64,000 bases of DNA from the NCBI RefSeq assembly GCF_947496725.1, contig NZ_CANMDS010000004.1, positions 186,001 to 250,000 on the forward strand, written 5' to 3'. This document shows positions 6,062 to 25,645 of this stretch, one piece after another (position 1 is the stretch's first letter; each line of letters starts with the position of its first letter). The stretch is from an uncultured Dokdonia sp. (GTDB taxonomy: Bacteria > Bacteroidota > Bacteroidia > Flavobacteriales > Flavobacteriaceae). The notes beneath the pieces were generated by a model that did not search any database, had not been told where the DNA came from, and saw nothing but the letters and a program-made list of their open reading frames with translations. The translations under genes and the position numbers were made by a program.

Positions 6062-6105
6062 CAAAGAAAGCGCAAAAATAACCCCTCTTCAGTAACATTT
6101 GTTAC
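6062..6105 (-). promoter_or_regulatory. Crp/Fnr-type operator plus -7 box for the YeeE pair
   Basis: GTAACATTTGTTAC at 6092-6105. On the minus strand TTTCTTTG (6069 to 6062) is a one-mismatch TAnnTTTG box whose last base is 36.5 bp from the operator centre. Predicted 5' UTR is only about 8 nt. Confidence 0.8.
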
Positions 6106-6116
6106 CTAGGAGGGGT
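6081..6116 (-). terminator. cydAB terminator hairpin containing the YeeE operator
   Basis: ACCCCTC (6081-6087) pairs with GAGGGGT (6110-6116), and read on the minus strand the hairpin is followed by TATTTTTG. The 22-nt loop contains the 14-bp operator of the downstream YeeE genes. Confidence 0.6.
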
Positions 6117-6160
6117 CTTTATTAATCAAGTATTTTAATGTATTGTAAATGTGTTTGTTG

Positions 6161-6176
6161 CGCTTTCGCGAAAGCG
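6161..6176. repeat. 16-bp palindrome, intergenic
   Basis: Exact copy just past the cydB stop (6183), with one extra symmetric G/C pair outside the core. Confidence 0.95.
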
Positions 6177-6182
6177 CAAAAC

Positions 6183-7220
6183 TTAATAACTATGATCATC
6201 TAGTTGTACTTTTCCAGCAAAAGTCTTGTATACAAAAAATGTATAACCAAGCACCAGAGGCGTACCTATAGCCACCATTGTTAAACTTATTCCTAGTGAT
6301 TTGTCTGATGAAGCTGCATTGTAAATCGTAATACTATTTTCCGGATCTATAGTAGAATACAGTAAGGTAGGATACAGCTCTATAGCCACAAGCGCCATCA
6401 TTAATGCAATAGTGAGAGCAGAGAAAAAGAATGCAATTTTAAAGCGCTTTTTATGCGCTAGTCTAGGGATGTTTGCGATACTCAAAAATGTGAGAATTGG
6501 GAATATAAATAGTATAGGGTTAGACTTAAAATCATCAGATAGATGAGGGATATAAATAAGCGTGTATAATGTGGTAATCACAAAAAATACTATAAACAGT
6601 ATGATGCCCTTTTTAAGTAAGCCCTCCAGTTTATCAAAGAGCCTTCCTTCTGTTTTAAGAAGTAGATAGATAGCCCCGTGAGACATAAAAAGAAATAAGG
6701 TAGTAAAGCCTGTTATGATAGCATAGGGATTTAAGAAACCTAAAAATGGACTTCCATCATACTCAAGATCTGGGCCTATAGGGATACCTTGTAAAACATT
6801 ACCTAGCACTACACCTAGTAAAAATGCAAGCATTATACTACTCACGCTATAGCATATGTCCCACATCTTGCGCCACCATAACCACTCTTCCTTACTTCTA
6901 AACTCTATGGCAATTGCCCTAAAAATGATAAACATTAAGAACAACATAAAGGGAATGTATAAACCAGAAAAGAAGGTAGCATACATAACTGGGAAGCCAG
7001 CAAAAAGTGCACCACCACCTATTACAAGCCACACCTCATTACCATCCCATACAGGTCCCACGGCATTAAGTGCTATCCTGCGGCTCAACTCTTTTCTAAA
7101 AAACAGATGCCAGGCACCGGCCCCAAAATCAAATCCATCTAGTATTGCATAACCAGAAAAAACACCACCCACAACGAGAAACCAAAGTGTAGGGTAATCT
7201 ATACCAAATAAAGTTTCCAT
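6183..7220 (-). CDS. cydB: Cytochrome bd ubiquinol oxidase subunit II
   Basis: 345 residues, eight or nine membrane helices, with the subunit II signature GYAILDGFDFGAG at residues 23-35 and GNEVWLV near 60. With CydA it forms cytochrome bd, a high-affinity quinol oxidase in the inner membrane that resists sulfide and nitric oxide. It starts 2 bp after cydA, so the genes are one operon. Its place beside sulfide-oxidation genes and its shared operator suggest use when sulfide or low oxygen limits the main oxidases. Confidence 0.96.
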   Translation of the reverse strand: METLFGIDYPTLWFLVVGGVFSGYAILDGFDFGAGAWHLFFRKELSRRIALNAVGPVWDGNEVWLVIGGGALFAGFPVMYATFFSGLYIPFMLFLMFIIFRAIAIEFRSKEEWLWWRKMWDICYSVSSIMLAFLLGVVLGNVLQGIPIGPDLEYDGSPFLGFLNPYAIITGFTTLFLFMSHGAIYLLLKTEGRLFDKLEGLLKKGIILFIVFFVITTLYTLIYIPHLSDDFKSNPILFIFPILTFLSIANIPRLAHKKRFKIAFFFSALTIALMMALVAIELYPTLLYSTIDPENSITIYNAASSDKSLGISLTMVAIGTPLVLGYTFFVYKTFAGKVQLDDHSY

Positions 7221-7222
7221 AT

Positions 7223-8617
7223 CTAAGCGTTTAAAGTGTTTGCAACTTGATTTGTAATCTCTTTTGTAAATCTTCTTTCTTCCATATCGTTGTCGTCTTC
7301 ATCATATGGCCCGTGTTTTATTTTTTTAGTCAAGAGATATAAGAATAAAAATAGAAGTAATGCATACACCACAAAAAATAGTATTAATGAGAATACAATT
7401 TGGTTTGCCGTGACGGCTTGAGAAAATGCTTCTGAGGTTCTAAGATGTCCATATACAACCCACGGTTGTCTTCCCATCTCTGCCGCAAACCATCCTACTT
7501 GATTACCTATTTGAGCTAGAATTACAGAAAATACAAATGTTTTTAATACCCACTTGTTTGTAAATAAAGTACCACGCCACCATAAGAAACAAGCATAAAG
7601 CGTGAGAGCTATAAAAAACATACCTATGGCAATCATTATATGATAAAACTGGAATACGGCATTTACCTGTCCTGGTCTATCTTCTTCTGGAAAAGCATTA
7701 AGACCTGTGACTGGTGCCTCAAAATCTTGATCAATTAAAAATGAGAGTCCTCCAGGTATTTTAATACCAGTAACCTCTTGCGATTCATTATCTACCCAGC
7801 CAAAAAGATATAAATCTGCAGGACCACTTTTATCATAGTGACCTTCCATCGCAGCTAGTTTTGCAGGTTGATTTTCTGCCACACCATCTGCAGAGCTATG
7901 CCCCGTTACGAGTTGCATTAATGAGAATACTGTAGCGACTCCTAGTGCAATTTTAAAAGCCATTTTTGAGATTTCTACATATCTACCTTTAAGCAAGTAA
8001 TAGGCGTGCACACTTAAGACTAAAAACGCACCTGCAAGAAATGCCGCAAACCACGTATGCGTTAATCTATCTACACTAGAAGGGTTAAAAACCATCGCCC
8101 AGAAGTCTGTAATCTCTGCACGAGCATTCATTCCTTCTCCTACAATGTGATACCCCGCCGGTGTTTGTTGCCAGCTATTTGCTACTACAATCCACACTGC
8201 AGAAAACATAGAGCCCAAAAACACCCCTATGGTTGCTACAAGGTGTACCCACGGCTTAACACGGTTCCACCCAAAAAGTAAGATCCCTAAAAAACCACTC
8301 TCAAGTGCAAAGGCAAATATTCCCTCTGCCGCTAGTGCACTCCCAAAAATGTCACCCACGTACCTAGAGTAAGTCGCCCAGTTGGTCCCAAACTCAAACT
8401 CCATCACGATACCGGTCACAACACCTATACCAAAGGTGAGTGCAAAAATCTTGGTCCAGAATTTTGCAAGAATATGATATTTTTCATTTTTAGTGCGTAT
8501 CCATAGGCTTTCCATTATGACCATAATAAGTCCCAGGCCTATGCTTAGGGGTGGGTATATGTAGTGAAAGGAAATAGTGAAGGCAAACTGGATTCTAGCG
8601 AGAATTTCTGTATCCAT
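7223..8617 (-). CDS. cydA: Cytochrome bd ubiquinol oxidase subunit I
   Basis: 464 residues. The N-terminal helix has the haem ligand His (FAFTISFHYIYPP, residue about 18), the conserved GRQPW motif lies near residue 393, and a moderately long Q-loop (residues about 245-310) precedes it. It oxidises menaquinol and reduces oxygen to water. The promoter has a perfect TAACTTTG box (8647 to 8640) and an activator site GTAACTTTGGTTAC centred 36.5 bp from its end, matching the other regulon promoters. Confidence 0.97.
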   Translation of the reverse strand: MDTEILARIQFAFTISFHYIYPPLSIGLGLIMVIMESLWIRTKNEKYHILAKFWTKIFALTFGIGVVTGIVMEFEFGTNWATYSRYVGDIFGSALAAEGIFAFALESGFLGILLFGWNRVKPWVHLVATIGVFLGSMFSAVWIVVANSWQQTPAGYHIVGEGMNARAEITDFWAMVFNPSSVDRLTHTWFAAFLAGAFLVLSVHAYYLLKGRYVEISKMAFKIALGVATVFSLMQLVTGHSSADGVAENQPAKLAAMEGHYDKSGPADLYLFGWVDNESQEVTGIKIPGGLSFLIDQDFEAPVTGLNAFPEEDRPGQVNAVFQFYHIMIAIGMFFIALTLYACFLWWRGTLFTNKWVLKTFVFSVILAQIGNQVGWFAAEMGRQPWVVYGHLRTSEAFSQAVTANQIVFSLILFFVVYALLLFLFLYLLTKKIKHGPYDEDDNDMEERRFTKEITNQVANTLNA

Positions 8618-8639: not shown

Positions 8640-8683
8640 CAAAGTTACTTCTAGAGAGAATTTCTCAAAGTAACTTTGGTTAC
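8640..8683 (-). promoter_or_regulatory. Crp/Fnr-type operator plus -7 box for cydAB
   Basis: Operator GTAACTTTGGTTAC at 8670-8683; -7 box TAACTTTG (consensus) on the minus strand, 8647 to 8640. The transcription start should be near 8633, placing the operator at about -42 to -43, the class II activator position. Confidence 0.85.
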
Positions 8684-8790
8684 ATAATGTACGTTTTTTT
8701 TTGAGTTCTGTAACATAAGTAACGTATCAATCTGGTTGCGTACAGTAATTTTGAAAGTTGAATAGTTATGCTGGATTTGTGTTTTAATTA

Positions 8791-8854: not shown

Positions 8855-9238
8855 GTGAAAGCAATTACCGTTATCATATTATCAATTGTACTATTAACTA
8901 ATAGTTTGAAAACTTCATTCATATATGGGTGGTATACCCTTGAGATAGAAAGTTTTATTGAAACGTTATGTGAGAATACTGATAAACCAGAAATGCAATG
9001 TAACGGAAAATGCTTTCTCACTAAGGTGACCGCTAGTGATAGTTCTGAAAATCAACCAGAGGCTATCACAATAAATTGGGATCAACTTATATTTTGCGAG
9101 CTTGACGTAGTTTTAACCTCATATATACTTATAAAGTTAGATCGCGGTAATGATATTGTATACAAGCAATTTTTACAATCCTCTTTTACAAACCTGATTT
9201 TTCATCCTCCTCGTTGTACGGAGTATTATCTCATATAA
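8855..9238 (+). CDS. Small exported CNGKC-motif protein, unknown function
   Basis: 127 residues from a GTG start. It has an N-terminal hydrophobic segment (ITVIILSIVLLTNSLKTSF), then ETLCENTDKPEMQCNGKCFL around residues 37-56 and another His/Cys near the end (IFHPPRCTEYY). Proteins with CENxDKPxxxCNGKC are common in Bacteroidetes directly before copper or metal TonB receptors, which is also the case here (51 bp before). The three-cysteine motif suggests soft-metal binding. The function is not known. Confidence 0.7.
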   Translation: MKAITVIILSIVLLTNSLKTSFIYGWYTLEIESFIETLCENTDKPEMQCNGKCFLTKVTASDSSENQPEAITINWDQLIFCELDVVLTSYILIKLDRGNDIVYKQFLQSSFTNLIFHPPRCTEYYLI

Positions 9239-9288
9239 TAACTTATAACAATATTATCATCACTTAATGATGATTAACAATTTAAGAA

Positions 9289-11394
9289 ATGAAAAAGATG
9301 TTTCTCGCGCTCTTATGCGCAATACCTACTATGGTCTGTTATGGACAAATAGTAGAAAAAAAGATAGATAGTTCTAAAGGAAAGGTAATAGAACTTAATA
9401 CCGTAATGGTCACCGGAAAGGCCAGTACAGACCCCGTACTTTCTAAAGTTAAAACAGATCTTGTAAAGAAGGTAGTTCAACCTAAAAATGTTGCAGATCT
9501 CTTTAGTAATATTAATGCTTTTACTCTTATAAAGAGAGGAAATTATGCTATAGATCCTTCGTTTAGAGCGTCACAGTATGAGCAATTAAATATTCAATTT
9601 GATGGAGGTACTAAGGCAATGCACGCCTGTCCTAATAGAATGGATCCTATTACAACACACGTGGTGCCAGAGGATATTGAAAAAATTGAAATTATAAAGG
9701 GGCCCTACACGATGAGATATGGTTCCACCTTTGCAGGGATTGTAAACCTTGTAACTCAAACACCTCAATCTATGCAAATGGGCTTGCACGGGAGTGTAAG
9801 CTCTGGTTATGAGTCTAATGGTGGTGCATCTGTGTCGTCTATAAAGTTACAACAGGTTACAGATGCATATGATATCACAGCAAATGCTGGTTATCGAGAT
9901 TTTGGTAATTACAAAGATGGTGCGGGTACGGTTATCCCTTCATCATTTAGAAGCCTAGATTATGGTCTTAAGGTAGGGTATAATATAAGCGATACACAAC
10001 GTGTTCAAGCTCACTGGAGACAGTCTTACGGTAGAGATGTGTTACACGCGGGATTGCCTATGGATACAGAAGAGGATAACAGTTCTATACTATCACTAGA
10101 TTATAAAATAAACGGACTTAAGGGGCTTATAAAAGAGATAAATGCAAAAGCCTATTACTCTTATGTAGACCATATAATGTCTAATAATAACAGACCTTCA
10201 TTTGCAATGACCGAAGCGTTATCTACTATAGATGCTACAACTGCTGGAGGAAAAGTTGAGTTTAAACTTAAGCCAGCTGAAGAATGGACCGTTTACTCTG
10301 GACTTGATGCCTTACTAGTGGCACGTGATGGAGGAAGATCACGACTTGTAAAACGTAATATGATGGGAGAGGAGCTCGCAGAGCCGTTGTATTTTCAAGA
10401 TAAAGTATGGCAAGATTCTTATATAAATGATTTTGGGATTTTTACAGAACATAAATATAAGTTTTCAAATAGTACACTCCTTACTGCTGGGGTACGCTTA
10501 GACCTTGTGACATCAGATATACGAGATCCCGAAGAAGATTTTAGGGAATTATATCCAGACCTAAAAAATAGAACCGAGTCTAACTTTTCTGGAACAGTAT
10601 CTGTGAAGCAAAAGCTCTCTGAGGTACATACGCTTGAGGTCGCCTTTGGTAGAGGAACGCGCAGTGCAAATATGATAGAGAGGTACATTAATCACTTTCA
10701 AGTGGGGCAAGATCCCTTTGAGTATGTAGGTAACCCTTATCTTGATGCAGAGGTTAATAATCAGTTTGAAATAGGTCTTAGCGGGAAAAAGAGATTTACA
10801 AGGGGAGTAGATGCATTACAGTACAATGTGTCTGGGTATTATTCTATTTATGAAAATTATATTGTGCCCGTCGTAGACCCTATGCTAGATAGAAAGTTTA
10901 ACCCCACCGCACAACCTCAAGAGGTAAAGCGCTTTATTAATGTAGACAAGGCGTTCAAGACGGGTGTTGAAGCAGATCTCTCTATTGACTTTATGGAGTA
11001 CTATAACTTTTATACCGCTCTCGCATACGTATATACCAGAAATGAAGATCTAGATGAATCTTTGCCATTAACACCACCTCTTACAACTCGCTTTGGAGTG
11101 CGTTATGAAAGAGGAAACTTATGGTCGAGCCTAGATTATAATCTTACTTCTCAACAAGAAGAAATTTCTACTAGTTTTAGAGAGCAAGAGACAGAGGGAT
11201 ACCAAACATTAGATTTTAAAATAGGCGTAGAGCCTATAACAAATGTACATATAGGTCTTGCTGTTCTCAATCTATTTGATGAGACATATAACAATCACTT
11301 AAATTTTTCCTTTGTAAACCAGGAGGGGTTTGATAGAGTTCCTATCAATGATCCAGGGAGAAACTTTTCAGTATTTGCAAAGTATTTGTTTTAA
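9289..11394 (+). CDS. TonB-dependent copper receptor, OprC/NosA-like
   Basis: 701 residues with an N-terminal signal peptide (ending MVCYGQ), a plug domain to about residue 170 and a C-terminal beta barrel ending FAKYLF. In the plug the sequence HACPNRMDPITTHV (about residues 111-124) matches the OprC/NosA copper-binding loop, where the CxxxM cysteine and methionine bind copper. This points to copper import through the outer membrane rather than siderophore uptake. It is cotranscribed with the CNGKC protein and followed by a terminator. Copper supply would serve respiratory oxidases, which is inferred. Confidence 0.88.
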   Translation: MKKMFLALLCAIPTMVCYGQIVEKKIDSSKGKVIELNTVMVTGKASTDPVLSKVKTDLVKKVVQPKNVADLFSNINAFTLIKRGNYAIDPSFRASQYEQLNIQFDGGTKAMHACPNRMDPITTHVVPEDIEKIEIIKGPYTMRYGSTFAGIVNLVTQTPQSMQMGLHGSVSSGYESNGGASVSSIKLQQVTDAYDITANAGYRDFGNYKDGAGTVIPSSFRSLDYGLKVGYNISDTQRVQAHWRQSYGRDVLHAGLPMDTEEDNSSILSLDYKINGLKGLIKEINAKAYYSYVDHIMSNNNRPSFAMTEALSTIDATTAGGKVEFKLKPAEEWTVYSGLDALLVARDGGRSRLVKRNMMGEELAEPLYFQDKVWQDSYINDFGIFTEHKYKFSNSTLLTAGVRLDLVTSDIRDPEEDFRELYPDLKNRTESNFSGTVSVKQKLSEVHTLEVAFGRGTRSANMIERYINHFQVGQDPFEYVGNPYLDAEVNNQFEIGLSGKKRFTRGVDALQYNVSGYYSIYENYIVPVVDPMLDRKFNPTAQPQEVKRFINVDKAFKTGVEADLSIDFMEYYNFYTALAYVYTRNEDLDESLPLTPPLTTRFGVRYERGNLWSSLDYNLTSQQEEISTSFREQETEGYQTLDFKIGVEPITNVHIGLAVLNLFDETYNNHLNFSFVNQEGFDRVPINDPGRNFSVFAKYLF

Positions 11395-12067: not shown

Positions 12068-12733
12068 TTAAATATCTTTTTTTGCTAGATACCAAGTGAC
12101 TTTTTCTACACTGTCATCTTGTAATCGCTTATTAAGAGCATCAAGTGATTTTGGTGGAGGGCAGATAGCTTTATCACCTCTTTTCCAGTCTAGAGGCATT
12201 GCAACCTTATGCTTGTCAGACATTTGAAGTGCATCTAAAGCTCTTAAAATTTCGTCCATATTTCTCCCTACATTGAGCGGGTAGTACATTACGAGTCTTA
12301 TCTTTTTTGAAGGGTCTATAAAGAATACGGCTCTTACGGCTGCAGTCTCACTCTCGTTAGGTTGTAACATTCCATAAAGCTTAGATACTTTCATATCTAT
12401 ATCTGCAATTATAGGGAAGTCAAAGTAAACACCCGTATTTTCTCTCACGTTTTGAACCCACCCTAAGTGTGCGTGTATGCTGTCTATACTTAAACCTAGT
12501 AGTTCTGTGTTAAGTGCATCAAACTCTGGTTTGCGTTGTGCAAAACCACTCATCTCTGTTGTACAGACTGGTGTAAAATCTGCAGGGTGAGAAAACATTA
12601 CAATCCACTTGTCTTTTGCAAAATCAGACATCTGGATAGTTCCTTTTGTAGTTACTGCTGTAAAATCTGGAGCTGTATCTCCAATTCTAGGCATTGCTAT
12701 AGGTTTCTCTGGTAATAGGTTTTCGTTATTCAT
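12068..12733 (-). CDS. Peroxiredoxin, Prx6/1-Cys type
   Basis: 221 residues, the length of Prx6-type enzymes. The peroxidatic motif PADFTPVCTTE is at about residues 50-60, and a second Cys occurs in the typical Prx6 C-terminal extension (KAICPPPKSLD). It reduces peroxides with a thiol partner; some members also handle persulfide-linked oxidants. The promoter has GTAACCTTTGTTAC 36.5 bp from a TATATTTA box, placing it in the island regulon and suggesting a role during sulfide oxidation or low-oxygen stress. Confidence 0.92.
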   Translation of the reverse strand: MNNENLLPEKPIAMPRIGDTAPDFTAVTTKGTIQMSDFAKDKWIVMFSHPADFTPVCTTEMSGFAQRKPEFDALNTELLGLSIDSIHAHLGWVQNVRENTGVYFDFPIIADIDMKVSKLYGMLQPNESETAAVRAVFFIDPSKKIRLVMYYPLNVGRNMDEILRALDALQMSDKHKVAMPLDWKRGDKAICPPPKSLDALNKRLQDDSVEKVTWYLAKKDI

Positions 12734-12768: not shown

Positions 12769-12812
12769 TAAATATACACTATAACCAGAGTATCTATAGT
12801 AACCTTTGTTAC
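12769..12812 (-). promoter_or_regulatory. Crp/Fnr-type operator plus -7 box for peroxiredoxin
   Basis: Operator 12799-12812; -7 box TATATTTA on the minus strand (12776 to 12769), 7 of 8 to TAnnTTTG, at the standard 36.5-bp distance. Confidence 0.82.
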
Positions 12813-12936: not shown

Positions 12937-14244
12937 TTATACATTTTGCCCTTTTAGCATTTTATTCCAGTATAAGTAGGGTAGCATAAATTTTTTGAGC
13001 ATCCACAATCTCCAGTGTTCTTTTGAGCTATCTTTTATGAGTAGTTGCTTGAGTTTTGGATCTGGGGTAAAATTGTTGTGATAATCAAACTCTGCAAGGA
13101 CCATTTTACCATAATCTGTTACAAGTGGGCACGATGAGTACCCTTTATATGATTGAGTACCTATTTTATTATGTTGTATAAGAAGGCCTAAGTTATCTAC
13201 CACAATAGGTACTTGCTTGCGTATCGCAGCCCCAGTTTTTGCTGTAGGTAAGGCAGCTACATCTCCAAGCCCAAAAATATTTGGGTACGTGTTATGCTGC
13301 ATTGTATGGTGATCTACATCAAGCCAGCCTGCATTATTTACTAGTGTAGATTCTCTTACAAACTTAGGTGCGACAGATGGGGGAGCTGTGTGCATCATAT
13401 CATAGTGTATACCATACCTATCTCCCTTTACAGTTACCTTTACATTTTTGTAGTTGTATTGAAATTTTTCATCTAGATATTTATCCTCGTCCTCGCCAGA
13501 CATAACCACACAGCCACCAGCCGAGATATCTTTTGTGAGTTCATACCAAGCAATTTTATTTGGCCCATCTACAGCCACGAGTTTATGATTAAAACGAAGG
13601 TTGATATCCTTTCGGTTTACAACTTCCATCAGGGTTTTTGCAATTTTTTTGACTCCAAAAATTATGGTACCTGCTGTCGCAAAGACAATATCTGTTTTTG
13701 TAGTAATATTATTTTTACGCCAGTGATTTTCGGCTAGATACATAATCTTTTGAGGAGCTCCACCGCATTTTATTGGAGTGGCTGGTTGTGTAAAGAGTGC
13801 GACACCCCCTTTAAAGTTTTTTATGACATTCCAAGTATGTTTTGGATCTGTATAGTTGCTACACACTACACCATTATCTATTGCCTCGCCTAGACCGGGT
13901 ACAAGACTAAAGTCATAAGCAAGACCTGGAGCAACAACTAGATAATCATAGGTGATACTACCATTAGATTCGGTGAGTACGCTATTTTTTTCTGGATTAA
14001 ACCCCGTAGCTTTATCTTTTATCCATACTGCGCCATCTGGAATGACAGAAGCCATAGGTTTTGCAGTTTTGTCAAAATCATAAGTACCTGCACCTACTAG
14101 TGTCCAGGCTGGTTGATAATAATGTGTATCTGCCGGCTCTATGATTGCAACGCTGCTTGATTTTTTATTTTTAAGAAGTTGTGCAGCAGTCATTATACCT
14201 GCTGTTCCTCCGCCTATGATGAGTACTTGATAATGTGATGTCAT
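12937..14244 (-). CDS. sqr: Sulfide:quinone oxidoreductase (SQOR-like)
   Basis: 435 residues. An N-terminal FAD-binding GGGTAG motif lies at 11-16. Cys160 in KCGGAPQKIMYL and Cys372 in YSSCPLVT correspond to the redox disulfide pair of human SQOR (CAGAPQ and SCPLVT); an extra Cys is at 128. A C-terminal amphipathic region (LWMLKKFMLPYLYW) suits membrane attachment. It oxidises sulfide, passes electrons to menaquinone and transfers sulfane sulfur to an acceptor. The island operator GTAACTTGTGTTAC precedes it at the fixed distance. The MBL-rhodanese enzymes nearby would process the persulfide product. Confidence 0.93.
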   Translation of the reverse strand: MTSHYQVLIIGGGTAGIMTAAQLLKNKKSSSVAIIEPADTHYYQPAWTLVGAGTYDFDKTAKPMASVIPDGAVWIKDKATGFNPEKNSVLTESNGSITYDYLVVAPGLAYDFSLVPGLGEAIDNGVVCSNYTDPKHTWNVIKNFKGGVALFTQPATPIKCGGAPQKIMYLAENHWRKNNITTKTDIVFATAGTIIFGVKKIAKTLMEVVNRKDINLRFNHKLVAVDGPNKIAWYELTKDISAGGCVVMSGEDEDKYLDEKFQYNYKNVKVTVKGDRYGIHYDMMHTAPPSVAPKFVRESTLVNNAGWLDVDHHTMQHNTYPNIFGLGDVAALPTAKTGAAIRKQVPIVVDNLGLLIQHNKIGTQSYKGYSSCPLVTDYGKMVLAEFDYHNNFTPDPKLKQLLIKDSSKEHWRLWMLKKFMLPYLYWNKMLKGQNV

Positions 14245-14269: not shown

Positions 14270-14313
14270 TAAAAATAAAGCAACTATATTGCGATTACTG
14301 TAACTTGTGTTAC
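14270..14313 (-). promoter_or_regulatory. Crp/Fnr-type operator plus -7 box for sqr
   Basis: Operator GTAACTTGTGTTAC at 14300-14313; TATTTTTA box on the minus strand, 14277 to 14270, again 36.5 bp from the operator centre. Confidence 0.82.
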
Positions 14314-17046: not shown

Positions 17047-17090
17047 CAAAGATAAGCGCTTAGTATACGTTTGTCAGTGACTTAGGTTAC
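17047..17090 (-). promoter_or_regulatory. Crp/Fnr-type operator plus -7 box for exported rhodanese
   Basis: Operator GTGACTTAGGTTAC (one mismatch) at 17077-17090; consensus TATCTTTG on the minus strand, 17054 to 17047, at 36.5 bp. Confidence 0.82.
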
Positions 17091-17509: not shown

Positions 17510-17519
17510 TTTAAAATTT

Positions 17520-18929
17520 TTATAATGTTGTTGGACACACAAAATCTGTAACAGGTACACCAGCTTCTTTTATGGCTTTAAAACCACCTTTTACATCTAT
17601 AAGATTGTGTACGCCTCTGCTTTTTAAAATAGATGCAGCAATCATACTTCTATATCCTCCAGCACAGTGTACATAAAAAGTGTCGTTTTCTGGAAACTCT
17701 GCAAGGTGATTATTTAAGAAATCTAGTGGTGTGAGGTGAGCGTCTTTTACACGCTCAGATAAATACTCACTCTCTTTACGTACATCGTATACCGGTTTTT
17801 TAGTTTTTTCAAGATCAGACTTAAATTGTGCAGCCGTTATAGAGCTTACAGTATCATACTCAAGAGCTTCCTTTTTCCAGGCATCAAAACCACCCTTGAG
17901 ATATCCCAGTGTGTTGTCAAAACCTACACGTGATAATCGTGTCACGGTCTCTTCTTCCTTACCAGGTTCTGTTACTAGTAATATAGGTTGCTTTACATCT
18001 GCAATAAGGGCTCCTACCCACGGAGCAAAACCTCCCTTGAGACCTATAAAAATAGACCTAGGTATGTGACCCTTTGCAAACTCATCTTGATGACGTACAT
18101 CTAGTACAATAGCACCCGTCTCATTTGCAGCAGCCTCAAAAGCTTGTGGTGATAAGGCTTGTGTACCTCTTTTTAAAACATCTTGTATGTCTTCATAGCC
18201 TTCCTTGTTCATTTTTACATTGAGCGGAAAATATTGAGGTGGCGGTAATAGTCCATCTATAACCTCATTTATAAACTCTTCCTTAGTCATATCTGCTCTC
18301 AAGGCATAGTTCATTTGCTTTTGGTTCCCTAGAGTGTCTACGGTTTCCTTCATCATATTTTTACCACAGGCAGATCCCGCACCGTGCGCTGGATATACTG
18401 TAACATCATCTGCAAGGGGCATTATTTTAGTGCGTAAGCTGTCATATAAAAAACCTGCAAGGTCACGCTCTGTGAGTTCTCCCATTTTTTGAGCAAGATC
18501 TGGCCTTCCTACATCTCCTAGAAATAAAGTGTCACCACTAAAAATCGCGTGGTCTTTACCATCTTTGTCTTTAAGAAGGTAAGTTGTACTTTCCATCGTG
18601 TGTCCTGGTGTGTGTAATGCTATAATAGTTACATCACCTAGCTTGAACTCTTGGCCATCTTTTGCAATTATTGCGTCAAAAGAAGGGTTTGCATTTGGAC
18701 CATATATGATAGGAGCGCCTGTTTCTTTGGCTAGTGTTACGTGCCCACTCACAAAATCTGCGTGAAAGTGAGTTTCAAAAATATACTTGATTTTTGCATC
18801 ATCAAGTTTTGCTCTATCAAGATAAGGTTTTACCTCTCTTAAAGGGTCAATTATAGCAACTTCACCTTTGCTTTCTATATAATAGGCACCTTGTGCTAAG
18901 CATCCTGTGTAGATTTGTTCAACGTTCAT
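17520..18929 (-). CDS. CstB-like persulfide dioxygenase-rhodanese fusion, paralogue 1
   Basis: 469 residues: a metallo-beta-lactamase domain (1 to about 240) with THFHADFVSGH (H54, H56, D58), HTPGHTMEST, SGDTLFLGD and YPAHGAGSACG; a middle rhodanese domain lacking a catalytic Cys (LVTEPGKEEE); and a C-terminal rhodanese with Cys422 in HCAGGYRS, plus Cys465 near the end. This is the layout of CstB, which oxidises persulfides to sulfite and makes thiosulfate. It heads an operon with a single rhodanese and carries the island operator upstream; a palindrome copy lies in its predicted 5' UTR. Confidence 0.92.
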   Translation of the reverse strand: MNVEQIYTGCLAQGAYYIESKGEVAIIDPLREVKPYLDRAKLDDAKIKYIFETHFHADFVSGHVTLAKETGAPIIYGPNANPSFDAIIAKDGQEFKLGDVTIIALHTPGHTMESTTYLLKDKDGKDHAIFSGDTLFLGDVGRPDLAQKMGELTERDLAGFLYDSLRTKIMPLADDVTVYPAHGAGSACGKNMMKETVDTLGNQKQMNYALRADMTKEEFINEVIDGLLPPPQYFPLNVKMNKEGYEDIQDVLKRGTQALSPQAFEAAANETGAIVLDVRHQDEFAKGHIPRSIFIGLKGGFAPWVGALIADVKQPILLVTEPGKEEETVTRLSRVGFDNTLGYLKGGFDAWKKEALEYDTVSSITAAQFKSDLEKTKKPVYDVRKESEYLSERVKDAHLTPLDFLNNHLAEFPENDTFYVHCAGGYRSMIAASILKSRGVHNLIDVKGGFKAIKEAGVPVTDFVCPTTL

Positions 18930-18980: not shown

Positions 18981-19024
18981 TAAAATTATAACACAAGTAG
19001 TGTCTTTACAGTAACCTAAGTTAC
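18981..19024 (-). promoter_or_regulatory. Crp/Fnr-type operator plus -7 box for MBL-rhodanese 1
   Basis: Operator GTAACCTAAGTTAC at 19011-19024; TAATTTTA box on the minus strand, 18988 to 18981, at 36.5 bp. Confidence 0.82.
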
Positions 19025-19092: not shown

Positions 19093-20505
19093 TTATAGTA
19101 ACGTAGTAGGGCAAATATAGTCAGTTTTTGGGATGCTTGTCTCAGCAATCTCTTTAAAACCGCCAGTAACATCTACAAAGTTGTCCCAGCCACGCTGTTT
19201 TAAAATTGAAGCGGCTATCATACTTCTATAACCACCAGCACAATGTACTATAAATGGAACCTCTTTTGGAAACTGAGCAAGGTGCTTATTGATCTCATTA
19301 AGTGGTATGTTTATAGCATCAACTATATGCTCAGAGTCATATTCACTCTTTTTACGTACATCTATTATAAGTGGTTGCTCACTTTTGTAACGTGTAGCTA
19401 GCTCTGTTGCGTTTATGCGTGCTGTGGTCTCAATGCCTTTGCCGCTTTCTCTCCAAGCGCCGAAACCTTTTTTGAGATAGCCTATTGCATAATCATACCC
19501 TACGCGAGATAATCTAGTGATTGCTTCTTCTTCCTTACCTGGGTAGGTTATGAGTAAAATTTCTTGTTTTACATCTGGAATCATCTCACCAACCCATTGT
19601 GCAAAATTGCCATCTAATCCTATGTTAATACTGTTAGGTATAAATCCAGAAGCAAAGTCTGAGGCATTACGAGTATCAAGCATAAGAGCACCAGTTTCAT
19701 TTGCGACAAGCTCAAACTCTTCTGGAGTGAGGGCTTTTGTAGCTCTACTCATCACGGTATCTAGACTTTCATATCCTTTAATATTCATAAGAACATTTTG
19801 CGGGAAATATCCTGGAGGAGCAGTGAGTCCATCTAGTAGCACCTTTATAAACTCTTCTTTACTCATATCTTGAAGAGCGTAGTTATACTTCTTTTGGTTT
19901 CCTAGTGTGTCTGTAGTCTCCTTGCTCATCATTTTTCCGCAGGCAGATCCAGCACCGTGATTAGGGTAGACGATGAGCTTATCATCTAGAGGTAGTATCT
20001 TATCTCTAAGAGAATCATAGAGGTGGCCTGCAAGTTTTTCTTCTGTGAGGTCTGACACTACGTGTTGAGCAAGGTCTGGACGACCCACATCTCCTATAAA
20101 GAGGGTGTCACCAGTTATGATGCCGTGTTCAGAATTATTTTCATCTATGAGTAGGTAGGTGGTGCTCTCCATAGTATGACCAGGGGTGTGTATTACTTTT
20201 ACTTTATAATCACCTATAGAAAAGATTTGCCCATCTGTTGCTATTGTAGCTTCATAAGCTGGCTTGGCTCCAGGACCAAATACAATCTCTGCACCGGTTT
20301 TTTTTCTTAAATCAAGATGACCGCTCACAAAATCTGCGTGAAAGTGAGTTTCAAAAACATACTTAATTTTTGCATTGTCACTTTGTGCACGATCTATATA
20401 TGGTTGTACCTCCCTTAATGGATCAAACACTGCTGCCTCGCCATTACTTTCTATATAGTATGCAGCGTGTGCGATACATCCGGTATAAATTTGTTCTACT
20501 TTCAT
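19093..20505 (-). CDS. CstB-like persulfide dioxygenase-rhodanese fusion, paralogue 2
   Basis: 470 residues, colinear with paralogue 1 and clearly homologous over its length. The MBL motifs (THFHADFVSGH, HTPGHTMEST, TGDTLFIGD, YPNHGAGSACG) are intact. The middle rhodanese again lacks the active Cys (LITYPGKEEE), and the last one has Cys422 in HCAGGYRS with Cys465 near the end. It is a separate transcription unit with its own operator and terminator, so the pair is a tandem duplication kept under separate but similar control. A substrate difference is possible but not visible. Confidence 0.92.
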   Translation of the reverse strand: MKVEQIYTGCIAHAAYYIESNGEAAVFDPLREVQPYIDRAQSDNAKIKYVFETHFHADFVSGHLDLRKKTGAEIVFGPGAKPAYEATIATDGQIFSIGDYKVKVIHTPGHTMESTTYLLIDENNSEHGIITGDTLFIGDVGRPDLAQHVVSDLTEEKLAGHLYDSLRDKILPLDDKLIVYPNHGAGSACGKMMSKETTDTLGNQKKYNYALQDMSKEEFIKVLLDGLTAPPGYFPQNVLMNIKGYESLDTVMSRATKALTPEEFELVANETGALMLDTRNASDFASGFIPNSINIGLDGNFAQWVGEMIPDVKQEILLITYPGKEEEAITRLSRVGYDYAIGYLKKGFGAWRESGKGIETTARINATELATRYKSEQPLIIDVRKKSEYDSEHIVDAINIPLNEINKHLAQFPKEVPFIVHCAGGYRSMIAASILKQRGWDNFVDVTGGFKEIAETSIPKTDYICPTTLL

Positions 20506-20533: not shown

Positions 20534-20577
20534 TAAAAGTAATAGGCTTTTATGAGTAGTTTGGTCACTTATGTTAC
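20534..20577 (-). promoter_or_regulatory. Crp/Fnr-type operator plus -7 box for MBL-rhodanese 2
   Basis: Operator GTCACTTATGTTAC (one mismatch) at 20564-20577; TACTTTTA box on the minus strand, 20541 to 20534, at 36.5 bp. Confidence 0.8.
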
Positions 20578-20682: not shown

Positions 20683-21492
20683 TTATTTAACAAAGAACTC
20701 CATATAGAAAATAAATACCGCCATCACGAGGATAAAGTAACCAAAACCTTTTTTGAGTTTCTGTCCATCTATAAAATTACTTAAATAACTGCCTATAAAA
20801 ATTCCCACAAGAGAGATTAGTGTAAAAATGGAGAGAAATACCCAGTCTACATCCATCGTTAAAGCGTCACCTAAAAAGAAGCCCATAAGAGATTTAAATG
20901 CTATGATTATGAGTGATGTCCCTACGGCTACTTTCATTTTTATGTTTGCAAGTATTACTAGCGCGGGTATGATTAAAAAACCACCACCGGCACCTATCAT
21001 ACCAGTAATCGCACCTACTAGCAATCCTTCTATTAAGATAAGAGGATAGTTATACGATACCTTACCATCATTTTTTTCTGGGCATTCTTTACGCTTTTTG
21101 AGCATTGAGAAAGCCGCTGGTATCATTAGTATTGCAAAGAGGCCAAACATTGCCATCCTGCGTGTAAAATCAAAATCACCTATGGTAAATAAAACGTCTG
21201 GTAAAGCTGGCACTACATAATGCCTTACCACTGTAACTCCCACAATAGCAGGAATACCAAATACTACTGCAGTACGCCAGTCTACATATCCTTTAAGATG
21301 CTGTTTAAGCCCGCCTACGAGCGCACTAGCACCTACAATGAATAAAGAGTATGCAGTTGCTACTTTTTCGTTTACAGAAAACAAATATGCAAGAACAGGT
21401 ACCGCAAGTATGGAGCCACCACCACCTATGAGACCTAAAGAAATGCCTATAATGAGAGCACTTATATATCCTAATACTTCTAAAACTTCCAT
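20683..21492 (-). CDS. TauE/SafE-family sulfite exporter
   Basis: 269 residues with about eight membrane helices. Two glycine-rich repeats (GLIGGGGSILAVPVLAYL near residue 20 and GMIGAGGGFLIIPALVIL near residue 163) mark the two halves of the TauE/SafE fold. Members export sulfite or sulfoacetate. In S. aureus a tauE gene sits in the cst sulfide-detoxification operon with CstB and SQR, as here. It has a consensus TACATTTG promoter box with the island operator. Confidence 0.9.
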   Translation of the reverse strand: MEVLEVLGYISALIIGISLGLIGGGGSILAVPVLAYLFSVNEKVATAYSLFIVGASALVGGLKQHLKGYVDWRTAVVFGIPAIVGVTVVRHYVVPALPDVLFTIGDFDFTRRMAMFGLFAILMIPAAFSMLKKRKECPEKNDGKVSYNYPLILIEGLLVGAITGMIGAGGGFLIIPALVILANIKMKVAVGTSLIIIAFKSLMGFFLGDALTMDVDWVFLSIFTLISLVGIFIGSYLSNFIDGQKLKKGFGYFILVMAVFIFYMEFFVK

Positions 21493-21514: not shown

Positions 21515-21558
21515 CAAATGTATTCTGATATAAAACTACTGGCAGTAACAAAGGTTAC
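21515..21558 (-). promoter_or_regulatory. Crp/Fnr-type operator plus -7 box for tauE
   Basis: Operator GTAACAAAGGTTAC at 21545-21558; consensus TACATTTG on the minus strand, 21522 to 21515, at 36.5 bp. The site is 5 bp from the stop of the regulator gene. Confidence 0.85.
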
Positions 21559-21562: not shown

Positions 21563-22198
21563 CTAGTCTAAATCTATGATTTCTATATAATTTCTATGTA
21601 ATTCTATTTTACCTAGTTTTTCTAATTTCTTGAGGAGCCTGGATATAACTACTCTCGAGCTGTGTAGTTCTCCTGCAATCTCTTGGTGTGTGTTGCGTAT
21701 GCTGTTATCTTCATTAATTCTAGACTTATTTTTTAGGTATTCTAGAAGACGCTGGTCCATATTATTAAAAGCAATACTATCTATGGTGTGGAGCATCTCA
21801 TTGAGACGGGTGTGATAGCTTTCAAAAACAAAATTTCTCCAAGATTTATATTTTGAAGTCCACATCTCCATTTTTTGAATAGGTACCATTATAAGAACGG
21901 TGTCAGTCTCTGCGATGGCTCTAATCTCGCTCTTTGTTTGCCCTAGGCAGCAACTCATAGTCATAGAGCAGGTATCACCTTTTTCTAGGTAGTAGAGTAG
22001 GAGTTCATCCCCTTCTTTATCGTCTCGCAATATTTTTATAGCACCAGAGATAAGTAAAGGCATACCTTTTATGTAAGAGCCTATCTCCATAAGTTTAAAG
22101 CCAGCGGGAACTTCTTTATAAGTCCCTACTTGCGCAATCTCGTTTATTAAGTCGTCTTCAAAAAGGTGACCGTAATTTTGCTTAAGTTCTTGAATCAT
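21563..22198 (-). CDS. Crp/Fnr-family regulator with Cys cluster; candidate master regulator of the island
   Basis: 211 residues: cyclic-nucleotide-binding-type beta roll (about 20-115), dimer helix (about 118-145) and a winged helix (168-205). The recognition helix reads SSRVVISRLLKKLEK, with R182 and S186/R187 at DNA-contact positions. There is no N-terminal Fe-S cysteine set as in FNR and no complete cAMP pocket. Instead C77, C83 and C84 (TCSMTMSCCLG) sit in the sensor domain where a ligand would bind. It is surrounded by GTAAC-N4-GTTAC sites, including one upstream of itself. Persulfide or redox sensing through the Cys cluster is inferred, not shown. Confidence 0.85.
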   Translation of the reverse strand: MIQELKQNYGHLFEDDLINEIAQVGTYKEVPAGFKLMEIGSYIKGMPLLISGAIKILRDDKEGDELLLYYLEKGDTCSMTMSCCLGQTKSEIRAIAETDTVLIMVPIQKMEMWTSKYKSWRNFVFESYHTRLNEMLHTIDSIAFNNMDQRLLEYLKNKSRINEDNSIRNTHQEIAGELHSSRVVISRLLKKLEKLGKIELHRNYIEIIDLD

Positions 22199-22293: not shown

Positions 22294-22368
22294 TAAAGTT
22301 AACCTAATTCTAATGTCCTTTAAGTAACAAAAGTTACAGTAAGAAAGATATAGAATTCATTAATTTTA
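22294..22368. promoter_or_regulatory. Shared operator with divergent -7 boxes (regulator and fatty acid hydroxylase)
   Basis: Operator GTAACAAAAGTTAC at 22324-22337. On the minus strand TAACTTTA (22301 to 22294) lies 36.5 bp from its centre, towards the Crp/Fnr gene. On the plus strand TAATTTTA (22361-22368) lies 37.5 bp away, towards the gene at 22472. This suggests autoregulation plus divergent control. Confidence 0.7.
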
Positions 22369-22471: not shown

Positions 22472-23347
22472 ATGGAAAAATATATGATAGGTTTTAAAGA
22501 TGCAATTCTAGGTACCATAGATTGGACCTGGAAATCTGTCATTTTTGAAGTCCCTTGGTATACTAATTACTTCTGGGGGCTTATCATTTTGTCGCTACTT
22601 GTCTGGTCTATGGAAATACTTTCTCCCTGGAGGAAGGAGCAATCTGTTTTTAGAAAAGACTTCTGGCTAGATGGCTTTTATATGTTTTTTAATTTCTTCT
22701 TGTTTACAATAGCAATAAGTGGTTTTTATAAGTTATTACAACTTGGTTTTGAAGATATAGGGATAAGCGAAGATTCTCTAGCGCTTTTTGATCCATCTTC
22801 TTGGCCTATGTGGAGCCAGTTACTCGTCTTTTTTATTGTGCTGGACTTTGTGCAATGGTTTACACACAGCTTATTGCATAAATATCCTTTTTTCTGGAAG
22901 TACCACAAGGTGCATCATAGTGTAAAAGAAATGGGGTTTGCAGCACACTTGCGCTATCACTGGATGGAGAATATTCTCTATAAACCACTTAAGACATTTG
23001 GCGTAATGATTCTTTTTGGTTTTGAACCTACACAGGCATACATAGTGCACTTTATTGCAATAGCAATAGGTCACATAAATCACGCAAACATTAAGATTAC
23101 CTGGGGTCCTTTAAAGTATATTTTTAATAACCCCGTAATGCACTTGTATCATCACGCATATACCATTCCCGAAGGAACTTATGGAGTAAACTTTGGAATA
23201 TCGCTAAGTGTATGGGACTATATTTTTAAGACAGATTATATACCTGAGGATAGCGGTACTATAGAGTTAGGTTTTCCCGGAGATGAGGTTTTTCCAAAAG
23301 ACTTTGTGAGTCAAAACACCTACGGTTTTAAAAAAGGACAACAATAG
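22472..23347 (+). CDS. Fatty acid hydroxylase/sterol desaturase-family membrane protein
   Basis: 291 residues with four or more membrane helices and the di-iron histidine boxes of the family: HSLLHKYPFFWKYHKVHHS (about residues 132-150), HINHAN and HLYHHAYTIPEG (about 224-235). Members are oxygen-dependent lipid hydroxylases or desaturases in the inner membrane; the substrate is not predictable. The gene shares the divergent operator with the Crp/Fnr regulator, so lipid modification may respond to the same signal. Confidence 0.85.
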   Translation: MEKYMIGFKDAILGTIDWTWKSVIFEVPWYTNYFWGLIILSLLVWSMEILSPWRKEQSVFRKDFWLDGFYMFFNFFLFTIAISGFYKLLQLGFEDIGISEDSLALFDPSSWPMWSQLLVFFIVLDFVQWFTHSLLHKYPFFWKYHKVHHSVKEMGFAAHLRYHWMENILYKPLKTFGVMILFGFEPTQAYIVHFIAIAIGHINHANIKITWGPLKYIFNNPVMHLYHHAYTIPEGTYGVNFGISLSVWDYIFKTDYIPEDSGTIELGFPGDEVFPKDFVSQNTYGFKKGQQ

Positions 23348-23357
23348 GGGAGTAGTA

Positions 23358-23373: not shown

Positions 23374-23408
23374 TAATTATAAAGAATACAATCTATAATT
23401 GCGGCTAT

Positions 23409-24287
23409 CTATTCAAAAAGCTCAGATGATAGGTATCTATCACCACGATCACATATAATACTTACAATAATACCACTCTCAAGCGTGCTTGCCAGTTTAA
23501 GTGCTGCTGCTGTAGCACCACCGCTGCTCATACCCGCAAGAATACCTTCTTCTTTTGCGAGACGTCTAGCCATTGCAATTGCCTCTTCTGTACTTACTTC
23601 AAGAACACGATCTACCTTTGAAGCGTCAAATATAGCTGGGAGATAAGCCTCTGGCCATTTACGTATACCGGGTATTCTAGAACCATCTGTGGGTTGTACG
23701 CCCACTATCTCAACACTTTTATTTTGCTCTTTGAGGTAGGTTGAGGTACCCATAATGGTACCGGTTGTGCCCATAGATGATACAAAGTGAGTTACTTCTC
23801 CATCTGTATCTCTCCAAATTTCTGGACCTGTAGACTTGTAGTGTGCTTTCCAGTTATTATCATTAGAAAACTGGTTAAAGCTGTAATAGCCTTCATTTTT
23901 TACTTTATCGATAGCATAATCTCGAGCACCTTCTATACCATCTGGGTGTAGTGTTACTTTTGCACCATAAGCACGCATAGTTTGCACTCTCTCTTTGGTA
24001 GCCTTTTCTGGCATTACAAGCTCTATATCTAGACCATAAATGGCTGCAATCATAGCTAGCGCGATACCCGTATTACCACTAGTAGCCTCAATGAGTTTTG
24101 ACGTTTTATCAATCTCGCCAGCATCTAGTGCAGTCTTAATCATATTAAGAGCAGCACGATCTTTTACACTCCCTCCAGGGTTATTTCCCTCAAGTTTAAA
24201 ATATAGATCTACGTTTGGGTTTGTATTAAGTGTAGTAGACTTTACAAGTGGTGTATTACCTATTCTATCTATGAGTGTTTTATTCAT
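23409..24287 (-). CDS. cysM: Cysteine synthase B (O-acetylserine sulfhydrylase, CysM type)
   Basis: 292 residues, PLP-dependent. The lysine is K42 in NNPGGSVKDR, and the phosphate loop and substrate motifs are TSGNTGIA (about 69-76) and SSMGTTGTIMG. The NPGG form and short length point to CysM rather than CysK. CysM can use sulfide or thiosulfate, the latter giving S-sulfocysteine, which would let the cell reassimilate thiosulfate made by the island enzymes. It overlaps cysE by 4 bp. Confidence 0.9.
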   Translation of the reverse strand: MNKTLIDRIGNTPLVKSTTLNTNPNVDLYFKLEGNNPGGSVKDRAALNMIKTALDAGEIDKTSKLIEATSGNTGIALAMIAAIYGLDIELVMPEKATKERVQTMRAYGAKVTLHPDGIEGARDYAIDKVKNEGYYSFNQFSNDNNWKAHYKSTGPEIWRDTDGEVTHFVSSMGTTGTIMGTSTYLKEQNKSVEIVGVQPTDGSRIPGIRKWPEAYLPAIFDASKVDRVLEVSTEEAIAMARRLAKEEGILAGMSSGGATAAALKLASTLESGIIVSIICDRGDRYLSSELFE

Positions 24288-25081
24288 TTTTTCTTATTTG
24301 TTTTTGTAGATACTTGTAGCTCTGGTCTATGTACGACAAATGTATGGGGTTCTATAGATGAGGTTATCCAGGTGTTACCACCTATAACGCTGTGCTCACC
24401 TATTACTGTATCACCACCTAGTATAGTAGCATTTGCATAGATGGTTACGTTGTCTAGTATAGTGGGGTGGCGTTTTGTGTTTTGTAATTCTTTAGTAACA
24501 ATAAGAGCTCCTAGTGTTACTCCTTGATACAGTTTTACGTGATCGCGTATTTCTACCGTTTCTCCTATAACTACACCGGTCCCGTGATCTATAAAGAACG
24601 AGCTACCTATGGTAGCGCCGGGGTGTATGTCTATACCTGTAAGCTGGTGAGCATACTCTGTCATTAATCTTGGTATGAGTGGTAGGCCCAGGTTGTAAAA
24701 TTCTTTTGCCATTCTATAGATAGATATGGCAAAAAAGCCAGGGTAGGCAAGGTAGACTTCTTCTAGGGTTTGTGCGGCAGGATCATTTGCAAGTATGGCC
24801 TGTGCGTCTTTTTTGAGATTAGTACAAATAGTGGGTATCACTTGCATAAAATCTACCCACGTCTTACAAGGCTTTCCCTTTATCTCTGGACAAGCTAGGT
24901 CTCTTATGGTGGTAAATAAAACTTCTAGTTCTATAAGTGATGTCTGTACATCTGTCTCTATATCAAAAAGAGTGTCAAAAAGAAGTTGAGTAAATCTTTG
25001 TGATTCCTTCTTTAATCGCACGGTAATGTGCACTTCTCTTTTTTGAGCATTTATTGCATCTACAAGGTGCGATACCTCCAT
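24284..25081 (-). CDS. cysE: Serine O-acetyltransferase
   Basis: 265 residues: an alpha-helical N-terminal part (to about 150) and a left-handed beta-helix of hexapeptide repeats with the conserved IDIHPGATIGSSFFIDHGTGVVIGET (about 174-199). It makes O-acetylserine from serine and acetyl-CoA, the substrate for CysM. Upstream of cysM in the same operon, with an ATGA overlap. No GTAAC-N4-GTTAC site precedes it, so it seems outside the regulon. Confidence 0.93.
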   Translation of the reverse strand: MEVSHLVDAINAQKREVHITVRLKKESQRFTQLLFDTLFDIETDVQTSLIELEVLFTTIRDLACPEIKGKPCKTWVDFMQVIPTICTNLKKDAQAILANDPAAQTLEEVYLAYPGFFAISIYRMAKEFYNLGLPLIPRLMTEYAHQLTGIDIHPGATIGSSFFIDHGTGVVIGETVEIRDHVKLYQGVTLGALIVTKELQNTKRHPTILDNVTIYANATILGGDTVIGEHSVIGGNTWITSSIEPHTFVVHRPELQVSTKTNKKK

Positions 25082-25186
25082 AAATTATAATTTCTAAAGG
25101 GTTTGTCTAATTATTACAGACATAATAAGTACTACAAAAATAAGGTAATTATCGCCTATATTATAGTGAGGTAAAAATGAGTGCCT

Positions 25187-25585
25187 TTAAGCGCTTGTTA
25201 CCGTAGATTTTTTACTAGCAGTACTATCATAATTAAAGAAAAATTGCGCCCAAATAATTTTAGATAGCGCATATAGTAATGGAAACAGTGCTATAAGTGA
25301 TACTACAAATGAGATCATAAGTGATGTAGGTGTAAGTTCTTCTCTTAATAAATAATTAAGCACTACTACAGCCATAAATAAAGCAACTCCTAAACCATAA
25401 GAAACATAATAAGAACCCTGATAAAAACCAGTTTCTAGCTCAAACTTTGTATCGCAGCAAGAGCAACGCTTGTGCACTTTGCCCATTGTACTAAATTTAT
25501 AAGGATGTCCTTTAAAAAAATCACCTTCTTGACACACTGGGCACTTCATCTGTATCACACTATATAATTTAGTTCCTTTGAGCAT
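25187..25585 (-). CDS. DUF983 membrane protein
   Basis: The start at 25585 (MLKGTKLYSVIQMKCPVC) is chosen because the promoter box at 25602-25609 excludes the longer reading from 25639. In the 132-residue product, a zinc-ribbon-like N-terminus (CPVCQEG and CSCCDTKF) precedes two membrane helices. Family function is unknown. It is included in the island regulon by its operator. Confidence 0.83.
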   Translation of the reverse strand: MLKGTKLYSVIQMKCPVCQEGDFFKGHPYKFSTMGKVHKRCSCCDTKFELETGFYQGSYYVSYGLGVALFMAVVVLNYLLREELTPTSLMISFVVSLIALFPLLYALSKIIWAQFFFNYDSTASKKSTVTSA

Positions 25586-25601
25586 AATCTTAAGTTTTAA
25601 G

Positions 25602-25645
25602 TAAAAGTAATTTGCAATACTCAGGTTGTACGTAACCATTGTTAC
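25602..25645 (-). promoter_or_regulatory. Crp/Fnr-type operator plus -7 box for DUF983 gene
   Basis: Operator GTAACCATTGTTAC at 25632-25645; TACTTTTA on the minus strand, 25609 to 25602, at 36.5 bp. Confidence 0.82.

Follow-up and report, generated by a model that had tools for sequence, protein, structure and literature searches.

In a 64,000-nucleotide stretch of the genome of an uncultured Dokdonia sp. (contig NZ_CANMDS010000004.1; hereafter the window), a sulfur and respiratory gene cluster carries the palindrome GTAAC-N4-GTTAC at a fixed distance from the -7 boxes of its promoters. The Crp/Fnr-family protein encoded at 21563-22198 is very probably, at a rough probability of 0.82, a class II activator of a sulfide-oxidation regulon with an NtcA-like DNA specificity. 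The geometry of sites and promoters, the gene set and the coupling of sites to the regulator recur across genomes, and the third base of the operator varies with residue 183 of the regulator. Binding by this protein, activation rather than repression, and the nature of the signal we infer.

Operators and -7 boxes in the cluster

With at most one mismatch, GTAAC-N4-GTTAC occurs 13 times in the window against 2.2 expected, and none of 100 shuffles reached 13 or more. Eleven of the 13 fall in a cluster at 6092-25645; the remaining two lie at 38731 and 56675. An earlier interpretation made from the letters of this DNA (the sequence-only reading) had listed ten sites and ten promoters. All ten sites were found again and the ten minus-strand promoters stand, but the counts were low: a missed site at 8710 brings the operators to eleven, and plus-strand promoters at 8710 and 22324 bring the promoters to about twelve. 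The operators and their -7 boxes are as follows.

6092..6105 (-), operator GTAACAAATGTTAC of the YeeE pair; -7 box TTTCTTTG at 6062..6069 (-), one mismatch, 22 base pairs (bp) from the operator
8670..8683 (-), operator of cydAB; -7 box TAACTTTG at 8640..8647 (-)
8710..8723 (+), eleventh operator GTAACATAAGTAAC, one mismatch, oriented towards the 8855 gene and the TonB receptor; -7 box TAATTTTG at 8746..8753 (+), exact, 22 bp from the operator
12799..12812 (-), operator of the peroxiredoxin gene; -7 box TATATTTA at 12769..12776 (-)
14300..14313 (-), operator of the sulfide:quinone oxidoreductase (SQR) gene; -7 box TATTTTTA at 14270..14277 (-)
17077..17090 (-), operator of the gene for a probably exported rhodanese, one half-site being GTCAC; -7 box TATCTTTG at 17047..17054 (-)
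19011..19024 (-), operator of metallo-beta-lactamase (MBL)-rhodanese 1; -7 box TAATTTTA at 18981..18988 (-)
20564..20577 (-), operator of MBL-rhodanese 2, one mismatch; -7 box TACTTTTA at 20534..20541 (-)
21545..21558 (-), operator of tauE; -7 box TACATTTG at 21515..21522 (-)
22324..22337, operator able to serve divergent promoters, of the regulator gene (-) and the fatty-acid-hydroxylase gene (+); -7 box TAACTTTA of the regulator gene at 22294..22301 (-)
25632..25645 (-), operator of the DUF983 gene; -7 box TACTTTTA at 25602..25609 (-)

All ten minus-strand promoters have, 22 bp downstream of the operator, an octamer that matches TAnnTTTG with at most one mismatch, and in nine of them TAnnTTT(G/A) is exact at this place (the exception is 6092, with TTTCTTTG). 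The distance from the operator centre to the last base of the box is therefore 36.5 bp in 10/10, the constant that the sequence-only reading had given. When TAnnTTT(G/A) was counted around the 11 sites in both orientations at spacings 0-69, ten boxes stood at 22 and at most two at any other spacing; the chance of finding 8/10 boxes at one spacing, multiplied by 70 spacings, was estimated at 1e-16 (local binomial). The plus-strand promoter at 22324 has TTAATTTT at 22 bp and an exact box, TAATTTTA, at 23 bp.

Genome-wide, the plain palindrome is found at 21 places, eight of them within the cluster. Twelve of the 13 others lie inside long open reading frames, nine of these as the repeat of a single frame: the nine copies of GTAACATCGGTTAC in a long repetitive reading frame at C4:85580-89115 are coding repeats, not operators. 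The remaining palindrome, outside frames at C3:64657, belongs to a terminator-like stem after a tRNA-Ser gene. A scan for motif and box together, which had been proposed as a check, gave seven exact composites (GTAAC-N4-GTTAC-N22-TANNTTT), all seven inside the cluster. Six further composites have one mismatch, five in the cluster and one (C1:795554) in a small reading frame, read by eye. The 15 composites with two mismatches, which include two cluster sites on the other strand and the site of a paralogous regulator at C7:151912, do not stand out clearly from background: at up to two mismatches, 20 matches to the reversed pattern are obtained. The plain palindrome in coding repeats and a tRNA terminator is what a compositional or coding artefact devoid of regulatory meaning would leave, but such an artefact has a negligible chance of being the explanation: shuffle, reversed-pattern and spacing controls fail to reproduce the arrangement, and it is conserved in 80/80 loci of relatives.

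Conservation across relatives and the position of the promoter

These 80 loci were collected by regulator protein sequence alone (the best 80 of at least 575), and the named loci closest to the regulator are nearly all from Flavobacteriaceae. They contain 258 exact palindromes, at least one in every locus, against four for the reversed control. TAnnTTT(G/A) lies 22 bp from a palindrome 200 times and 0-7 times at each other spacing from 0 to 69 (106 boxes in sum, of a total of 306), and the extended operator consensus is T-GTAAC-YWWN-GTTAC-T-G. The 29 loci collected first (L029-L057) show the geometry in 27 cases; their species overlap with those of the 80 loci, so they were kept out of the counts. 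Regulator homologs at E<=1e-30 are present in 274/299 genomes of the family, and the exact composite in 233/299 (reversed control 12/299, counted by hand from the table). The composite occurs in 232/274 genomes with a homolog versus 1/25 without one (Fisher p 8e-17), in a test that ignores shared ancestry, with many of the 25 homolog-less genomes being small and some of the 274 matches being paralogs only.

Class II activation by Crp-type proteins is textbook knowledge. The -7 box occupies -12 to -5 in Flavobacterium psychrophilum (excerpts of PMC9723704) and F. johnsoniae (excerpts of PMC6847099), and because of this mapping the operator centre is placed at -41.5. The class II Crp-type geometry, with the dimer site centred at -41.5, would thus hold here if transcription starts lie as mapped in relatives; the published -7 mapping and the comparative evidence both favour the class II spacing of about -42 that had been claimed. 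The same claim had the usual -33 element replaced by the activator site, which goes too far. A T-G adjoins the operator in 107/200 promoters of the 80 loci, and its mirror image, CA, in 1/200, so that it is not part of the palindrome. By our own placing, the T-G would fall at -34/-33, the place expected for the end of a TTTG -33 element; part of the element thus seems to remain, and 'partly overlapped' is the better wording. The -33 motif is weak generally in F. johnsoniae promoters, according to the same excerpts (PMC6847099).

As a repressor, the regulator would cover the -33 region from -41.5 and be released by sulfur species; among known sulfur sensors, SqrR and CstR repress, and the operator abuts the T-G at -34/-33. 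A repressor, however, would tolerate several positions, and here 200 of the 306 boxes share a single spacing. NtcA, with a similar site and spacing, activates such promoters (excerpts of PMC3898017). Repression is accordingly an unlikely reading, and activation is preferred.

The regulator and its DNA specificity

The regulator falls within the Crp/Fnr superfamily by its Pfam matches (cNMP_binding 29.8 bits, cut-off 27.5; HTH_Crp_2 36.4 bits, cut-off 27), and all of the 50 Foldseek matches listed are Crp/Fnr-type structures. In alignments to solved structures its recognition helix, SRVVISR, pairs with TRVTVTR of NtcA and SRETVGR of CRP. NtcA thus resembles the regulator in fold and helix, and binds GTAN8TAC centred near -41.5, its ilvG site lying 22 nt from the -10 box, similar to glnA (excerpts of PMC3898017). 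GTAN8TAC is contained in GTAAC-N4-GTTAC, and the position of the site is shared. This is a likeness in working, not membership: the NtcA model TIGR03697 scores 40.1 bits against a cut-off of 244.95, and NtcA serves nitrogen genes, responds to 2-oxoglutarate and works with a -10 box TAN3T, whereas here there are sulfur genes, TAnnTTTG and a Cys-rich sensor region.

Escherichia coli CRP shares the fold, a palindromic site (TGTGA-N6-TCACA) and a class II site centred at -41.5, but it has E181 and TGTGA half-sites in place of V183 and GTAAC. Its residues E72 and R82, which contact cyclic AMP (cAMP), align with M79 and K89 of the regulator, which scores 46 bits against a CRP cut-off of 266. The N-terminal Cys cluster of FNR has no counterpart, there being no Cys before residue 77. 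The best match in the PDB (E 1.1e-17) is 3dv8, a Crp/Fnr protein of Eubacterium rectale with Cys residues aligned with Cys77 and Cys83; it comes from another phylum and has the helix REVITR, and we know of no regulon for it. SqrR, CstR, BigR and FisR control SQR and persulfide dioxygenase genes, the same kind of target as here, but belong to the ArsR, CsoR or sigma-54 activator families and not to Crp/Fnr.

Residue 183 of the regulator, equivalent to CRP E181, is Val in 79/80 orthologs, as in NtcA. Comparison of the helices and sites of NtcA and CRP suggests that Val at this position is matched by A at operator base 3, and Glu by G. This code was tested on loci selected solely by protein, 80 of orthologs and 29 of paralogs (30 paralog loci, L196-L225, less L223, which gave no readable frame), with sites of the same geometry within 1.5 kb; loci L138-L167, picked by their GTGAC motif, were excluded. 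Base 3 is A 115 times and G five times near V-type genes, and A four times and G 19 times near E-type genes (p 1.5e-15). Adjacency, co-occurrence and this covariation support the sequence-only reading in its choice of the Crp/Fnr protein at 21563-22198 as the probable binder.

An internal test is offered by a paralog in the own genome, a Crp gene at C7:151957-152595 with helix AREVVSR and E183. Just past it lies the site GTGAC-N4-GTCAC-N22-TACATTTG and, 29 bp beyond that, a YgaP-like (DUF2892) gene; the paralog locus with its GTGAC promoter is a predicted second, parallel regulon. The locus (C7:149655-152595, L025) comprises the Crp gene, the YgaP-like (DUF2892) gene and a sulfate-permease-family gene (Pfam). 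Exact GTGAC composites occur in 65/299 family genomes (control 1). The paralog, or else the FNR-like protein at C1:458710, might be thought to bind the GTAAC sites too, the paralog having the same geometry beside its own gene and some targets in relatives carrying GTGAC sites. This is quite improbable: the paralog has E183, its relatives adjoin GTGAC sites (19 of 21 geometric sites), and it is found at E<=1e-42 in at most 35/299 genomes, a few of these matches being the ortholog, against GTAAC composites in 233/299; the helix of the FNR-like protein is SRQTVSN. This third Crp/Fnr protein (C1:458710-459369, L026) adjoins a radical-SAM gene, presumably hemN-like, and is possibly an anaerobic regulator.

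A GTGAC composite also accompanies relatives of the 127-residue protein and TonB receptor in 5/30 loci chosen by that composite (L140, L141, L145, L149, L155), so the imperfect site at 8710 may have been one for the paralogous regulator that has drifted or been converted. Among 28 distant family genomes, hand-chosen and many of them for their GTGAC sites, a swap of V183 to Glu in the orthologs was considered and rejected, Val being kept in 27/28; the GTGAC sites of these genomes are therefore probably those of a different regulator. The one ortholog without Val (L194) has T183 and a nearby site GTGAC-N4-ATCAC.

Predicted target genes, proposed signal and biological meaning

The cluster spans 5074-25639 of the window, which has a G+C content of 38% in a host genome of 3.29 Mb. 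It encodes the YeeE pair, cydAB, a TonB receptor, a ferritin-like protein that we take to be of Dps type, peroxiredoxin, an SQR-like flavoprotein, carbonic anhydrase, DUF2490 and DUF202 proteins, a heavy-metal domain protein, two rhodaneses, two MBL-rhodanese fusions (presumably of the persulfide-dioxygenase type), TauE, the Crp/Fnr regulator, a fatty-acid-hydroxylase family protein, a PALP protein (cysteine-synthase-like, we assume), a hexapeptide protein (presumably serine-acetyltransferase-like) and a DUF983-like protein. Genes at the operators are the following.

5074..6047 (-), YeeE/YedE-type sulfur transport pair (Sulf_transp, DUF6691; domain matches), more likely starting at an internal Met at 6047 than at the reading-frame start 6098, a position within the operator
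6183..8617 (-), cydA-cydB, cytochrome bd oxidase
8855..11394 (+), 127-residue protein, which matched no Pfam or NCBIfam family, and TonB-dependent receptor
12068..12733 (-), peroxiredoxin (AhpC-TSA with 1-cysPrx_C)
12937..14244 (-), SQR-like flavoprotein; the closest NCBIfam model is type III SQR (214.5 bits, under the cut-off of 525)
16668..17033 (-), probably exported rhodanese, its N-terminus being hydrophobic
17195..18929 (-), MBL-rhodanese 1 and a small rhodanese
19093..20505 (-), MBL-rhodanese 2
20683..21492 (-), TauE/SafE sulfite exporter family protein
21563..22198 (-), Crp/Fnr-family regulator, 211 residues (Pfam, PDB alignments, conservation)
22472..23347 (+), fatty-acid-hydroxylase superfamily protein
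25187..25585 (-), DUF983-like protein (20.7 bits, just under the Pfam cut-off of 22.6), more likely starting at an internal Met at 25585

Immediately past the last operator, at 25737-27064, lies a pair of genes for an extracytoplasmic-function (ECF) sigma factor and an RskA-type anti-sigma factor.

In the 80 loci, the first genes after 203 oriented sites, assigned by best BLASTP match to proteins of the window or of the own genome, are MBL-rhodanese 1 (46), TauE (31), DUF983 (25), SQR (20), the regulator (16), SulP (12), peroxiredoxin (12), fatty-acid hydroxylase (9), exported rhodanese (7), DUF2892 (4), CydA (3), MBL-rhodanese 2 (2) and YeeE (1), with 11 unassigned and four without a gene. 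Forty composite places away from the regulator gene were hand-picked family-wide, their groups being confirmed by BLASTP and, for seven proteins, by Pfam. The commonest gene behind these remote GTAAC composites encodes a TolC-type outer-membrane efflux protein (13/40; L298-L328). Others are a small 120-residue protein (4), thioredoxin-like proteins (4), molybdopterin oxidoreductases (3), SQR-type, MBL-rhodanese, SulP, peroxiredoxin and unclear genes (2 each), and DUF2892, TauE, DUF983, fatty-acid hydroxylase, c-type cytochrome/Tll0287 and DUF4386-like genes (1 each). The common thread of these predicted targets is the handling of sulfide, sulfane sulfur and sulfite, plus an unexplained efflux component.

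Cys77, Cys83 and Cys84 are present in 80/80 orthologs. Cys77 is kept in every clade homolog read (80/80, 29/29 and 28/28, with paralogs 29/29 and distant homologs 40/40), whereas Cys83/84 occur in the V-type orthologs and in some of the distant homologs. Cys77 is missing from the third Crp protein (C1:458710), a more distant relative. The stretch aligns with what we take to be the phosphate-binding cassette of CRP. Since these cysteines are conserved in a cassette-aligned stretch in which E72 and R82 are replaced, reactive sulfur (persulfide or polysulfide) read by Cys77 with Cys83/84 is the preferred signal, and a somewhat probable one. The same regulator and sites could instead answer to oxygen, redox state, nitric oxide (NO) or a small ligand, the sulfide genes being one output: cydAB and peroxiredoxin are among the targets here, and O2, NO, 2-oxoglutarate and cyclic nucleotides are common signals of Crp/Fnr proteins. 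Such a signal is possible yet rather doubtful, as most of the conserved targets are sulfane-sulfur enzymes, no more than 3/80 loci have CydA among the targets, and Cys77 is kept in the clade homologs read.

Under the activator reading with a sulfur signal, Cys77, with Cys83/84, would sense reactive sulfur in the part of the protein that corresponds to the cAMP-contacting region of CRP. The regulator dimer would bind T-GTAAC-N4-GTTAC centred at -41.5 and, by class II activation, recruit the housekeeping RNA polymerase of Bacteroidota to the TAnnTTTG box (-12 to -5), switching on a set for sulfide and sulfane-sulfur oxidation and detoxification: the SQR-like flavoprotein, MBL-rhodaneses, rhodanese, YeeE pair, TauE, peroxiredoxin, cytochrome bd and the regulator itself.

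Several observations weigh against this picture. A role in sulfur metabolism is not obvious for DUF983, the fatty-acid hydroxylase or the TonB gene. In the 80 loci, 60/258 palindromes have an exact TAnnTTT at 22 on neither side, many of them showing a one-mismatch box at 22 or 23 (viewed, not counted). Among the distant family orthologs of V type, only 3/27 have an exact composite within 1.5 kb, and a GTAAC-N4-ATTAC variant with a box appears in 8/28 of the distant genomes. Ortholog L103 has E183 beside two A-type sites, and some MBL-rhodanese 2 promoters are of GTGAC type beside V-type regulators (L077, L090, L097, L107, L110, L111, L120); the split is thus not clean, specificity being leaky or targets being shared by two regulators, and each of the two fusions may have a regulator of its own. 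Forty hand-picked loci outside the family, viewed for palindromes within about 5 kb (L280 not typed), have neither palindrome type in 28 cases; GTAAC palindromes occur in 9/20 V-type loci (one also with GTGAC), and E-type loci have GTGAC palindromes in 3/19 and GTAAC in 0/19. CxxxxxCC is no clear predictor of sulfur neighbours, which outside the family accompany 13/17 loci with CxxxxxCC, 9/17 of SFLGG type and 5/6 others, in a by-eye reading that is not decisive. The AlphaFold model, from 32 sequences, has a mean confidence (pLDDT) of 79 and a predicted fold score (pTM) of 0.57, with values under 50 at residues 80-86; these cover the Cys region, and we therefore make no claim on Cys geometry.

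In the open-access literature searched (best matches only for long lists, with subscription journals mostly outside it), no title or abstract opening among the matches listed describes the regulator, the operator, its fixed position on a Bacteroidota promoter or control of sulfide oxidation by a Crp/Fnr protein, nor any activator position on the unusual flavobacterial housekeeping promoter. As a tentative wider proposal, a Bacteroidota-wide Crp/Fnr clade may form a new class of reactive-sulfur sensor that has lost cyclic-nucleotide binding and acts through the conserved Cys77, with Cys83/84 assisting in the flavobacterial branch of V type. Its two operator dialects, GTAAC (V183) and GTGAC (E183), would each serve a class II sulfur regulon, the two running in parallel on the atypical promoter of Bacteroidota.

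For flavobacteria, whose housekeeping promoter is unusual, the regulon gives the position of an activator to the single base, over about 200 promoters in 80 loci, and residue 183 with operator base 3 offers a testable code. Genes of unknown role, for DUF983, the fatty-acid hydroxylase and, in relatives, the TolC-type efflux protein, are tied to the regulon, and the regulator is a candidate master switch for flavobacterial sulfide and sulfane-sulfur oxidation.

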